From Treponema sp. (lineage in GTDB: Bacteria > Spirochaetota > Spirochaetia > Treponematales > Treponemataceae), in NCBI GenBank assembly GCA_017613485.1, contig JAGADS010000041.1:1-10693 (forward strand): DNA of 10,693 bases, read 5' to 3'. This document shows, one piece after another, positions 7,211 through 10,693 of this stretch. The stretch's first letter is position 1. Every line of letters starts with the position of its first letter. Below the pieces are notes generated by a model, which was given only the letters and a program-made list of their open reading frames with translations, did no database searches and was not told the origin of the DNA. The position numbers and the translations under genes are program-made.

Positions 7211-7229
7211 TAATTAAGGAGGCATGAGA

Positions 7230-7436
7230 ATGGCACGACCAATAAAAGAGACTCCAATTTTATTTGGTGAAGATGGCAAACGGTTTGAAGAAAACATGCG
7301 TAATGCTAAATGCACAGTAACACCGGAACAGTATAAAGTCATGTATTCTCATTATAAAACCGTCCTTGCATGTCTAGAAAGAGGTGAAGCAGCAAGAAAA
7401 GAACGACTTGCAAAGAGGATAGAATCACAAAAATGA
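7230..7436 (+). CDS. Putative antitoxin of a GNAT toxin-antitoxin pair
   Basis: A 68-residue, strongly charged protein (MARPIKETPILFGEDGKRFE...). Small proteins with this MARPIK-tP-I start are, from general knowledge, common partners of toxin-like genes. It lacks the ribbon-helix-helix (DUF1778) signature of TacA-type antitoxins usually paired with GNAT toxins. A helical, Lys/Glu-rich C-terminus (about 48-68) could wrap the toxin. ATG 7230 is chosen because AAGGAGG (7216-7222) lies 7 nt before it; the in-frame ATG at 7224 is only 1 nt from that site and too close. The stop overlaps the GNAT start as ATGA, the standard antitoxin-first, coupled layout. Function is inferred from context. Confidence 0.75.
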   Translation: MARPIKETPILFGEDGKRFEENMRNAKCTVTPEQYKVMYSHYKTVLACLERGEAARKERLAKRIESQK

Positions 7437-8008
7437 TTTCTGAAGAAGAATTTCTAGAACGATATGACATTCAAAAACTTGAAGATGATGTAGATATAAA
7501 ATCATTTGATTGTGGGGATGATGATTTGAATGATTTTATTATTTCGGAAGTTGCCTTTTATAAAAAACAGCTAATTGCAATGCCTTATGTTATCATCGAA
7601 AAAAATAACCCTGAAATTCTCCTCGCATATTTCACTCTTTCTAATGATAAGATTGCAGTTACAGATTTTTCTTCAAACAGCCAGTTTAATAAGTTTAAGA
7701 GAAAAAACTTTAACAGAGAAAAGTTTTTACGAAGTTATCCATCAGTAAAAATTGGAAGACTGGGTATTTCGAAGCAATTACAAGGGAAGGGGATTGGAAC
7801 TCATGTAATTGATTTTATAAAACTGTATTTCTTAGAGGACAACAAGACTGGTTGTAGATTCATAACAGTCGATGCTTATAATGCCGCAGTTCCATTTTAT
7901 GAAAAGAATGGGTTTAGATTTCTCCAGAAAAAAGACGACAGTCCTACCCAATTGATGTATTTTGATTTAATGAATGTAATTGATACAAAGATGTTTCTTT
8001 CTAACTGA
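7433..8008 (+). CDS. GNAT-family N-acetyltransferase, probable toxin (TacT-like)
   Basis: A 191-residue acetyltransferase. The N-terminal SFDCGDDDLNDFI (24-36) is the hallmark opening of TacT/AtaT-type GNAT toxins. The acetyl-CoA loop follows as RLGISKQLQGKGIGTHV (109-125, with QGKGIG at 117-122), then ITVDAYNAAVPFYEKNGF (144-161), in which Tyr156 is the expected catalytic tyrosine. Known members acetylate the aminoacyl group of charged tRNAs and stop translation; that target is family knowledge, not visible here. Translation couples to the antitoxin through the ATGA overlap. Length is slightly above the usual 160-180, mainly from a Lys/Arg/Phe-rich insert (about 84-100). It converges with the XRE gene, leaving 11 bp between stops and no visible terminator. 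A housekeeping GNAT is possible but unlikely given the neighbour. Confidence 0.88.
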   Translation: MISEEEFLERYDIQKLEDDVDIKSFDCGDDDLNDFIISEVAFYKKQLIAMPYVIIEKNNPEILLAYFTLSNDKIAVTDFSSNSQFNKFKRKNFNREKFLRSYPSVKIGRLGISKQLQGKGIGTHVIDFIKLYFLEDNKTGCRFITVDAYNAAVPFYEKNGFRFLQKKDDSPTQLMYFDLMNVIDTKMFLSN

Positions 8009-8754: not shown

Positions 8755-9191
8755 AAAAGAAAATCGCTCTATTAACAATTTTATTCTTGATCACTTCATA
8801 TCTCTTTGCAGGGGATTATGATTCCAGAGAACTCCATAAAACTTCTAATGGTCATACTGTCCATGCTAAAGTTTTTTTCCCTAAAAACTTGAGTAGCAAG
8901 ATGAATGATGATCCTGTCAAATTTTTAATTGATTTATATTTAAAAGAAGGAGAAAGTCCTATAACATGGAATGTCACCGAAATCTGGTTACCAAACGGAA
9001 TTTATTACAGAATAAATTTTGGTTATCATTCTTATCCAAACGTGGGCTTGGTTGAAGTAATGAAAGGACACCTTTCAATTGATGGCCCCATGGAACTGAT
9101 TTATCAATTTGAAGGTACCCGTTATTCAACATATAACACTTACTATGATGTTTATCAGTCGCAATGCAACAAGTATCTGAATATGTATTAG
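8751..9191 (+). CDS. Secreted hypothetical protein
   Basis: A 146-residue protein with a clear Sec signal peptide: MKKK, hydrophobic 5-18, and probable cleavage after SYLFA (17-21), leaving a mature part of about 125 residues that begins GDYD. The mature part is rich in Tyr and beta-forming residues (for example WNVTEIWLPNGIYYRINFGY, 74-93) and has one cysteine near the C-terminus (Cys139). There is no lipobox, so it should be periplasmic or released rather than lipidated. The family is not recognised. It overlaps the four-cysteine gene by 4 nt and has GAGGA upstream. Control by the XRE regulator hints at a conditionally made product, such as a bacteriocin-like or stress protein, but this is guesswork. 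Confidence 0.8.
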   Translation: MKKKIALLTILFLITSYLFAGDYDSRELHKTSNGHTVHAKVFFPKNLSSKMNDDPVKFLIDLYLKEGESPITWNVTEIWLPNGIYYRINFGYHSYPNVGLVEVMKGHLSIDGPMELIYQFEGTRYSTYNTYYDVYQSQCNKYLNMY

Positions 9192-9259
9192 CCAGATACC
9201 ATGGCAGAAATGTAGGGTGATTTTGCTCAAGATAAAAATGTTGCATTAAAAGATTTCGA

Positions 9260-9288
9260 TTGACTTTAATCCTGTTTTGGGATATAGT
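9260..9288 (+). promoter_or_regulatory. Strong promoter of the tandem-repeat RNA
   Basis: TTGACT (9260-9265), exactly 17 nt, then TATAGT (9283-9288): 5 of 6 in both boxes, the best promoter in the window. The predicted start at 9295/9296 coincides with the first base of the first RNA repeat. Confidence 0.75.
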
Positions 9289-9295
9289 TTAATTA

Positions 9296-9391
9296 GATTG
9301 AGGACATAGGGCTTGTCCTGGCTAAATAAATAAGATCCGATAGATGATTGGGGTCGGAGAGCCTGACCCGGCTAAAAAAATAAAGCTCGAT
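9296..9391 (+). repeat. Two 46-nt direct repeats, 50-bp period, structured
   Basis: Copies at 9296-9341 and 9346-9391 align over 46 columns without gaps, with 33 identical. Stems are AGGACA/TGTCCT (9301-9306/9314-9319) and GGGTCG/TGACCC (9351-9356/9364-9369). Loops are TAGGGCT and GAGAGCC. Both continue with GGCTAAA-n-AAATAA and end in CGAT. Pseudoknot pairing is GAGC (9359-9362) with GCTC (9385-9388) in copy 2 and GGG (9309-9311) with TCC (9336-9338) in copy 1. Confidence 0.85.
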
Positions 9392-9397
9392 TGAGGA

Positions 9398-9427
9398 AGC
9401 TCTGTAGGCAACTACAGGGCTTTTTTT
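9398..9427 (+). terminator. Rho-independent terminator of the tandem-repeat RNA
   Basis: AGCTCTGTAG (9398-9407), loop GCAA (a GNRA tetraloop, 9408-9411) and CTACAGGGCT (9412-9421) form a 10-bp stem with one G-U pair. A run of seven T (9421-9427) follows, its first T being also the last base of the stem. This is a strong terminator. The AGCTC in its 5' arm repeats the tail of the second RNA repeat. Confidence 0.9.
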
Positions 9428-9445
9428 ATCGATCATGGTATAAAA

Positions 9446-9527
9446 CATCATAAAACTTGTAAATTTCACTTGAAAAAACATTATAAAACTTGTAAATTTC
9501 ACTTGAAAAAACATTATAAAACTTGTA
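9446..9527 (+). repeat. 33-bp tandem repeats upstream of the ATPase gene
   Basis: Two full units (9446-9478 and 9479-9511) differ at one base (CATC or CATT at the start). A third partial unit (9512-9527, CATTATAAAACTTGTA) follows, and a degenerate start (CATGGTATAAAA, 9434-9445) precedes them. Each unit holds TATAAA and TTGTAA. The near-identity suggests recent tandem duplication and possible copy-number variation. It is not CRISPR: there are no spacers. Confidence 0.9.
9491..9520 (+). promoter_or_regulatory. Repeat-derived promoter of the ATPase gene
   Basis: TTGTAA (9491-9496), an 18-nt spacer and TATAAA (9515-9520), predicted start near 9527, 22 nt before the ATG. The same pair occurs one repeat earlier (9458-9463 and 9482-9487), so each added repeat adds a promoter-like unit. 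TTGAAA (9504-9509) with TATCAT (9526-9531) is a further option. Confidence 0.4.
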
Positions 9528-9548
9528 TCATTGAAACTGAGACGAGTT

Positions 9549-10693
9549 ATGGAGCGTACAAAAACCAAGGAATTAGAAAACTGGCTGAAATCTCCGCGTA
9601 GAAAGCCTCTCATAGTCTGGGGGGCAAGGCAGGTCGGAAAGACTTACCTTGTAAGGAATATTTTTGCCAAACAGTACTTTAAAGATTACATTTACATCGA
9701 CTTAAAAAAAGATGATCAAGCCAGGACTTTTTTTGCTACAACCTCCGATTCTGACAAATATATCAATTACATCGAAGCACGATTTGGAAAAAAACTCACT
9801 CCAGAAGTTCTCTTGATTTTTGATGAAGTTCAGCAATGCCATCAGGTCATATCCTCTCTAAAATATTTCTGCCAGGACCACCGTGAGCTTCCCGTAATCG
9901 CCACTGGTTCTCTTGTCCGTCTTTCCATAAAACAGCAGGATCAGAAAAACAAGGATGATGATTTTCTTTTTCCGGTAGGTAAGATTGACTCTCTAAACAT
10001 TTATCCTGTAACTTTTGAAGAATACCTTATGAATGTGAGTCGTCCCCTCCTGGAAATGATTAAAAGCTCATATTCAAATAGACAGGCTCTTGATCAAGTT
10101 TATCATGAGATGGCGATGGACTTTCTTTACCAATACCTGACGATTGGAGGACTGCCAGAGCCTCTGGATATTTTTATACAGGACAAGTCTTATGTTGATG
10201 CTACAAAGGTTTTAAAAGAAGTCTATTCAAATTATCTTGGCGACATGGATACATATAATGTTTCAAATGAAACGATTTTGAAAACACGAAATGTCTACAA
10301 GAATATTTTTTCACAGCTGAACAAGGAAAATAAAAATTTCAAGATTTCTCTTTTGGAAAAGGGAAAGTCAAACCGTGATTATTTCAGTGCATACGAGTGG
10401 CTTGAACTTGCCCATGTAATCTACCGCTGCCATAATGTAAAAGCCCACGTACCACTTCCGCTGCAGGAAGAAAACTCAGGACTGTTCCGGCTTTATCTTG
10501 CGGATGAAGGAATCTTTACATGTCAGAGTCAGGTGAATCAGGCCGATTTTTTTGTAAAGGACAGGAGGAATACTTTGTCCGGAATATTTTATGAAAACTA
10601 TACTGCATGTGAATTTGCGGCAAAGGGAATTCCTCTTTTTTATTGGACAGGAAAGCAGACCCATGAGTTTGAGTTTGTAGTTTATTCAGGAGG
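9549..10693 (+). CDS. AAA+ ATPase with DUF4143 region (partial, 3' end beyond window)
   Basis: The first 381 residues of a COG1373-type ATPase are present, with the frame open at the window edge. Walker A is WGARQVGKT (24-32), Walker B LLIFDE (88-93), and sensor 1 is IATGSLV (117-123). The family-typical FPVGKIDSLNIYPVTFEEYL stretch (about 140-159) and the YLTIGGLPEP motif (about 197-206) follow. The region after about 215, with LYLADEGIFTC (about 322-332), matches DUF4143, a domain related in fold to PD-(D/E)XK nucleases. Its usual last strand with a VEVK-like motif would lie just past the window, so perhaps 30-60 residues are missing. ATG 9549 has only a weak GACGAG before it. Family function is unknown; members are scattered, often single and mobile. 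Here the gene sits directly behind the tandem-repeat RNA and its terminator. Confidence 0.92.
   Translation, partial: MERTKTKELENWLKSPRRKPLIVWGARQVGKTYLVRNIFAKQYFKDYIYIDLKKDDQARTFFATTSDSDKYINYIEARFGKKLTPEVLLIFDEVQQCHQVISSLKYFCQDHRELPVIATGSLVRLSIKQQDQKNKDDDFLFPVGKIDSLNIYPVTFEEYLMNVSRPLLEMIKSSYSNRQALDQVYHEMAMDFLYQYLTIGGLPEPLDIFIQDKSYVDATKVLKEVYSNYLGDMDTYNVSNETILKTRNVYKNIFSQLNKENKNFKISLLEKGKSNRDYFSAYEWLELAHVIYRCHNVKAHVPLPLQEENSGLFRLYLADEGIFTCQSQVNQADFFVKDRRNTLSGIFYENYTACEFAAKGIPLFYWTGKQTHEFEFVVYSG

Follow-up and report, generated by a model that had tools for sequence, protein, structure and literature searches.

The DNA considered here is a stretch of 10,693 nucleotides from Treponema sp. (contig JAGADS010000041.1 of assembly GCA_017613485.1), hereafter the window, in which an initial annotation, made from the letters alone, had described an undescribed small RNA built of two covarying pseudoknot repeats. 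The locus raises two questions, namely to what kind of RNA the repeats belong, and why such an RNA should stand there with no toxin gene behind it. The first can be answered with high confidence: the element is the TenpI antitoxin half of a TenpIN type III toxin-antitoxin cassette, with the toxin gene tenpN missing at this place. A structured RNA of pseudoknot repeats was upheld, with further covariation in its homologues, but it can no longer be called undescribed, its kind being the known TenpIN antitoxin RNA according to relatives that carry the toxin. It is only from such relatives that the kind of antitoxin is recognisable. A seemingly unknown RNA thereby becomes a named one, and TenpI gains a pseudoknot supported by covariation; the solved type III RNA-toxin complexes met in this analysis are those of ToxIN and CptIN.

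Architecture of the RNA element

The features of the element and of its downstream neighbourhood are compiled in Table 1. Both copies start where they had been placed and differ, over 46 nt, at 13 columns (6, 9, 11, 12, 15, 18, 21, 24, 32 and 39-42), nine of which lie inside proposed pairs when counted on the unit alignment. At an offset of 50 bases the repeats share 33 of 46 letters, and elsewhere in the window this offset gives at most 24 identities. The compensatory pairs 9301:9319, 9304:9316 and 9310:9337, together with their partners in copy 2, are as claimed, and the near-consensus promoter ahead of copy 1 and the terminator closing the unit were both found. From the promoter-like site a transcription start is predicted near 9294-9296, so that one promoter would give a transcript of about 130 nt that holds two units of 50 nt and the beginning of a third before the terminator. 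The short stretch GATTGAGG, which repeats the start of unit 1, is kept across 13 aligned loci with a few substitutions. The region 9296-9430 folds with -44.4 kcal/mol (z -3.6; none of 200 shuffles as good), a large share of this energy being contributed by the terminator. A simple terminator scanner reported none in 9180-9560, perhaps because part of the T run pairs inside a longer stem. In agreement with the lack of an Rfam match on which the initial annotation had counted, no Rfam family reached its gathering score anywhere in the window, and a search of the window for tRNA and tmRNA returned none.

Table 1. Features of the TenpI element and of the sequence that follows it in the window
Feature	Position	Strand	Details
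Promoter-like site	9260..9288	+	TTGACT-17-TATAGT; 10/12 consensus letters
TenpI unit 1	9296..9345	+	P1 9301-9306/9314-9319, loop 9307-9313; A-rich linker 9320-9334; P2 9309-9312/9335-9338, one C-A mismatch
TenpI unit 2	9346..9395	+	P1 9351-9356/9364-9369, loop 9357-9363; A-rich linker 9370-9384; P2 9359-9362/9385-9388
GATTGAGG	9389..9396	+	Start of partial third repeat
Intrinsic terminator	9397..9427	+	Hairpin 9397-9407/9412-9422, then T run
Start site of tenpN in relatives	9428..9548	+	Here the junction to an unrelated module; no toxin or remnant
33-bp iterons, 2.6 copies	9442..9527	+	Belong to the AAA module, not to the RNA
AAA_14/DUF4143 ATPase gene	9549..10693 (runs off the window)	+	PF13173 79 bits, PF13635 52.9 bits

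A pseudoknot kept by compensatory change

In each unit P1 comprises 6 bp and closes a loop of 7 nt; positions 3-6 of this loop pair with a tail that follows an A-rich linker of some 15 nt. The general plan, read along the sequence, is P1, a loop starting U-A, four P2 letters, a single letter, P1', an A-rich linker of 14-16 nt and P2', except that the loop starts with G-A in the second units of the close clade; the units compared here are spaced 49-51 nt apart. Among the close units (n = 25, 17 distinct), P1 is paired in 99% of cells and P2 in 88%. Three measures, namely the percentage paired, the covariation score and the number of cells with changes on both sides, exceeded 500 of 500 shuffles and all slid versions; two others were not above shuffles, namely pairs changed on both sides (equalled or exceeded in 168 of 500 shuffles) and further pair types (in 455 of 500). 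With the divergent units added (40 units, 17 distinct cores, parsed by hand), 98 of 102 P1 cells and 63 of 68 P2 cells are paired, the P2 arms including GAGC/GCTC, AAGC/GCTT, AGTC/GACT and GATT/AATC. The paired count observed in this joint set was reached by none of 10,000 shuffles, which take no account of relatedness. For the hand parse, two spurious parses of L059 were discarded and L025 was omitted as a near-copy of L024; the first unit of L035 was included by hand, and for first units of the close clade the count followed the register of the initial annotation rather than that of the parser. The five failing P2 cells all concern the fourth pair, in first units of the window's clade; the weak loop-tail position that had been noted is thus real, failing in 5 of the 17 distinct cores.

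Since compensatory changes preserve both helices in the divergent TenpI units, the sequences support an antitoxin repeat that would fold as an H-type pseudoknot, a feature of type III antitoxins for which the covariation of P1 and P2 is the evidence here. The plan with its A-rich linker resembles that of CptI as presented in passages of PMC4627078, in which the second loop, rich in A, occupies the minor groove of the first stem; the CptIN system of Eubacterium rectale (4RMO) is described there with two repeats, a 45-nt unit, a long A-rich second loop and an H-type pseudoknot. At the TenpN loci L083 and L085 (E. coli and Staphylococcus plasmids), a strict scan for the Treponema-type pseudoknot detected no unit, which means that TenpI RNAs do not all share the motif as defined; the same scan misses the window's own units, which break its rules. 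The antitoxin RNA of one divergent TenpIN locus (L059, in genome G069) seems to have a single pseudoknot unit.

Relatives of the cassette and their toxin

Relatives were sought by an exact scan of genome contigs with a 22-letter degenerate pattern, which yielded 26 stretches. Half of them (13/26) belong to Treponema, Treponemataceae or Spirochaetaceae records, and 12 of these 13 carry the complete promoter, two-unit RNA and terminator; in the last, L026, the cassette is present as far as the contig reaches and then runs off it. The other 13 stretches showed no repeat unit in the eight inspected, and a fourteenth relative, L053, came from a genome search. Homologues with compensatory changes, for which the initial annotation had called, occur in Treponema-family genomes. 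In the alignment of the window with 12 relatives, conservation extends from the -35 hexamer, which forms its upstream edge, through the terminator. When the flanks of 14 cassettes were compared (up to 3 kb per side, in some 0.3-0.7 kb), only those of L024 and L025 matched each other; the cassette therefore sits in many different places. A transposon end or palindrome family was rejected on account of these differing flanks and of a conserved block that consists of promoter, RNA and terminator. A riboswitch or cis-acting leader, considered because of the pseudoknot, was likewise set aside, given the RNA's own promoter-like site and terminator and a conserved neighbour that, in the relatives, is a toxin.

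An intact gene of about 148 aa follows directly after the terminator in 8 of the 13 close relatives that could be judged (L004, L006, L013, L015, L022, L023, L024 and L025), the terminator lying between antitoxin RNA and toxin gene. The three toxins checked score above the NCBIfam cut-off of the TenpIN toxin (NF047358), and no CptN-named family is among the matches. A Pfam search of the relatives' toxin gave nothing, and a sequence search of the PDB no relevant match. With Foldseek alone the toxin model found no significant PDB match (4ato ranked second, E 0.068); the best alignments of the predicted fold are with five solved type III toxins, and the predicted model of the L006 toxin has the ToxN/CptN/AbiQ fold. 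Because the gene behind the terminator in relatives is placed in TenpIN by NCBIfam and has a predicted fold closest to type III toxins, the RNA is assigned as a TenpI antitoxin. The TenpIN family, named after the Photorhabdus luminescens system, shares with the relatives a tandem-repeat RNA, a terminator and a toxin of about 148 aa. The window has the tandem antitoxin repeats and the intrinsic terminator but not the TenpN directly downstream, and it was likened to TenpIN through the toxin of its relatives.

In a census, 274 genomes of the family of G002 were scanned with an RNA model (R1) whose second hairpin was 7 columns off; a corrected model (R2) exists, and the scan used R1 only. R1 matched in 19 of the 274 genomes, and TenpN exceeded its cut-off in 14. 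All 14 of these toxins have a TenpI-like RNA just upstream, of the close type in eight cases and divergent in six (G069, G142, G186, G100, G235 and G004 contig 20, each with intact toxin). TenpN homologues also occur on small plasmids of E. coli, Salmonella and Klebsiella (NZ_CP073975.1 and relatives), where they are annotated as hypothetical and reach 38-39% identity in the best rows. Altogether 246 of 72,556 plasmid records match TenpN, 182 of them from Staphylococcus, and phage records gave one TenpN-like match (26% identity), in a Vibrio phage.

In type III systems, according to passages of PMC5086642, the repeats are processed by the toxin and hold it in turn, and the terminator restricts how much toxin is made. 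By analogy to ToxIN and CptIN, TenpN would act as an endoribonuclease that cleaves the transcript into single units and is kept inactive on binding them; in the relatives, tenpN would presumably be expressed by read-through of the terminator, and the window RNA would neutralise close TenpN toxins in trans. Passages of PMC8040213, which mentions both type III toxin-antitoxin systems and Treponema, showed no link.

Relation to the 6A RNA

One Rfam family, the 6A RNA (RF02925), resembles TenpI in having a hairpin with a UAGAGC loop and the tail AAAGCUC, but differs from the model proposed here in that its Rfam structure line is a hairpin without P2. The window scores 16.0 bits against it, well short of the gathering value of 41.2, and five divergent Treponema TenpI loci reach 30.3-37.9 bits, also below gathering. 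In the 274 family genomes, 13 match RF02925 at E ≤ 0.01, none over gathering, and five of these matches lie at TenpI loci. Among the eight outside known TenpI loci, the one at G004:C62 consists of a single hairpin and an A run, on a contig that gives no TenpN match. The search was also made in 398 genomes from the phylum to which G275 belongs (G275 being the Oscillospiraceae genome that carries L003), a phylum that we take to be Bacillota. Here two genomes matched at E 0.001, G639 and G622, with G639 alone over gathering. Its contig 61 (L086, 267-419) carries three tandem 51-nt copies of RF02925 at 67.7-68.3 bits, followed by a terminator-like hairpin (judged by eye) and a TenpN at 150.7 bits; the array is also matched by the Treponema model R2 (48.5 bits). 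In G622 the match (32.4 bits) has no TenpN beside it, and a weak TenpIN match lies on another contig. Six further genomes gave no RF02925 match, but no positive control matched there either, and L083 and L084 gave none at E 0.1. A search of the literature library found no paper naming RF02925 and none joining '6A RNA' with a pseudoknot. The 6A RNA is very probably a TenpI antitoxin repeat, as judged from one genome over the cut-off. An RNA listed in Rfam simply as sRNA is thereby linked to a type III toxin-antitoxin locus.

Persistence of the RNA without its toxin

The window is not alone in lacking the toxin: counting it, 6 of 14 judged close loci keep the RNA without an intact gene. The window and L053 have none, L009 retains a 43-residue C-terminal remnant, L017 the first codons only, and L008 and L012 hold broken copies; the frameshifts of the last two, in draft genomes, may be sequencing errors, an explanation that does not apply to the other four. 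No TenpN match at E 0.001 was found in the genome of either L053 or L017. Behind an intact TenpI RNA, L017 (oriented 575-840) has the opening codons of tenpN continuing in frame into a short stretch that reads like a membrane protein and resembles a TM2 domain. Among the divergent loci a seventh, in G091, has only a partial toxin match, and the difference in toxin loss between close and divergent loci (6/14 vs 1/7) is not significant (P 0.34).

An RNA kept with no toxin behind it would be either a recent relic or an antidote acting in trans against TenpN met elsewhere, and we think a relic somewhat likelier than active retention. To the first reading, a functionless RNA that has not yet decayed because its toxin was lost recently, we give an even chance. 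The RNA scores of toxin-less loci are indistinguishable from those of toxin-bearing ones (mean 132.5 vs 135.1 bits, P 0.40), which is what a recent loss predicts, and the toxin-less RNA of L053 (genome G143) looks like the start of decay, with a P1 mismatch in unit 2 and a terminator altered by eye. Such a mismatch is by itself no sign of decay, since it also occurs in toxin-bearing L004. The window promoter, both units and the terminator, on the other hand, appear intact, and in L009 a P1 pair of unit 2 is fully compensated despite the reduction of the toxin to a remnant, though this change may predate the loss.

It is less likely that the RNA serves as an anti-addiction or decoy RNA, retained to neutralise TenpN from plasmids, other loci or phage-exclusion systems. 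Loci without intact toxin do recur, as the counts above illustrate, and genome G004 combines an orphan TenpI with a divergent TenpIN of intact toxin on another contig. Passages of PMC3475682 describe a use of the same kind in the pseudo-ToxI of phage PhiTE, where type III antitoxin repeats likewise occur without toxin; that case differs in belonging to the ToxIN family, in being phage-borne and in having been shown experimentally, while the window RNA is a TenpI known from its sequence. Against this role, toxin loss is not significantly commoner than in divergent loci, and any selection for retention is hypothetical. Passages of PMC5086642 report that the ToxI antitoxins of two systems do not cross-inhibit, so that a divergent TenpN may escape neutralisation. 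More doubtful still is the wider proposal that toxin-free TenpI loci are a standing Treponema strategy, in which tenpN is shed and the antidote RNA kept as a genomic vaccine. If it were true, RNA antitoxins would persist as stand-alone anti-addiction genes against TenpN of mobile elements or neighbouring loci; since the toxin has gone repeatedly while the RNA stayed, the idea of anti-addiction can be put to the test for RNA antitoxins. In G004 the orphan RNA with its 43-residue remnant (L009) lies on contig 6, and in the divergent locus on contig 20 (L035) the first RNA unit has a damaged P1, the toxin being intact.

The junction behind the terminator

A local tblastn search of the window with three intact TenpN gave nothing at the expected place of the gene and chance-level matches only elsewhere. 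With no tenpN downstream, the locus is an orphan TenpI and not a TenpIN system, the absence of toxin being established for the window stretch; a TenpN may lie elsewhere in the cell. Homology to TenpI cassettes stops at or before 9433, and that of the AAA_14/DUF4143 module starts at 9441-9451, so that two independent modules meet where tenpN should start. That the toxin seems missing only because a chimeric assembly joined two multi-copy modules is very unlikely: each of the two is well represented by relatives in the family and the gap between the homologies is only about 8-12 bp, but the two do not overlap and thus offer no shared sequence for a false join, G+C is steady at 32-37% across the junction (800-base steps), and other toxin-less loci have different sequence past the terminator. 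About as improbable is that the AAA_14/DUF4143 gene replaced the toxin gene and now owes its expression to read-through from the antitoxin promoter, since, for all that it lies on the same strand as the RNA with its start codon about 120 nt past the terminator, it has its own iterons and promoter-like sites, and iteron-bearing homologues elsewhere in the family show no TenpI in the 200 bp displayed upstream.

The meeting of an orphan TenpI with an unrelated module is in keeping with these homologues: 5 of the 8 AAA-module matches inspected have similar ATAAAACTTGTA iterons before the gene, with no TenpI in the upstream 200 bp shown. Iterons with this core and a spacing of about 33 bp were seen upstream of AAA_14/DUF4143-like genes in the window, L092, L093, L094, L106 and L107, and in L111 without an AAA start in the stretch shown; they are possibly an operator or recombination site of this gene family. 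From about 7200 onwards the G+C content of the window drops to 32-37%, against 39-48% before. Genes for a CI-type repressor and for a GNAT protein preceded by a small partner also lie in this low-G+C stretch, which has the look of an accessory island carrying addiction-type genes. At 7224-8008 a 70-aa open reading frame overlaps the GNAT acetyltransferase gene by 4 bases, the two being arranged like a type II toxin-antitoxin pair.
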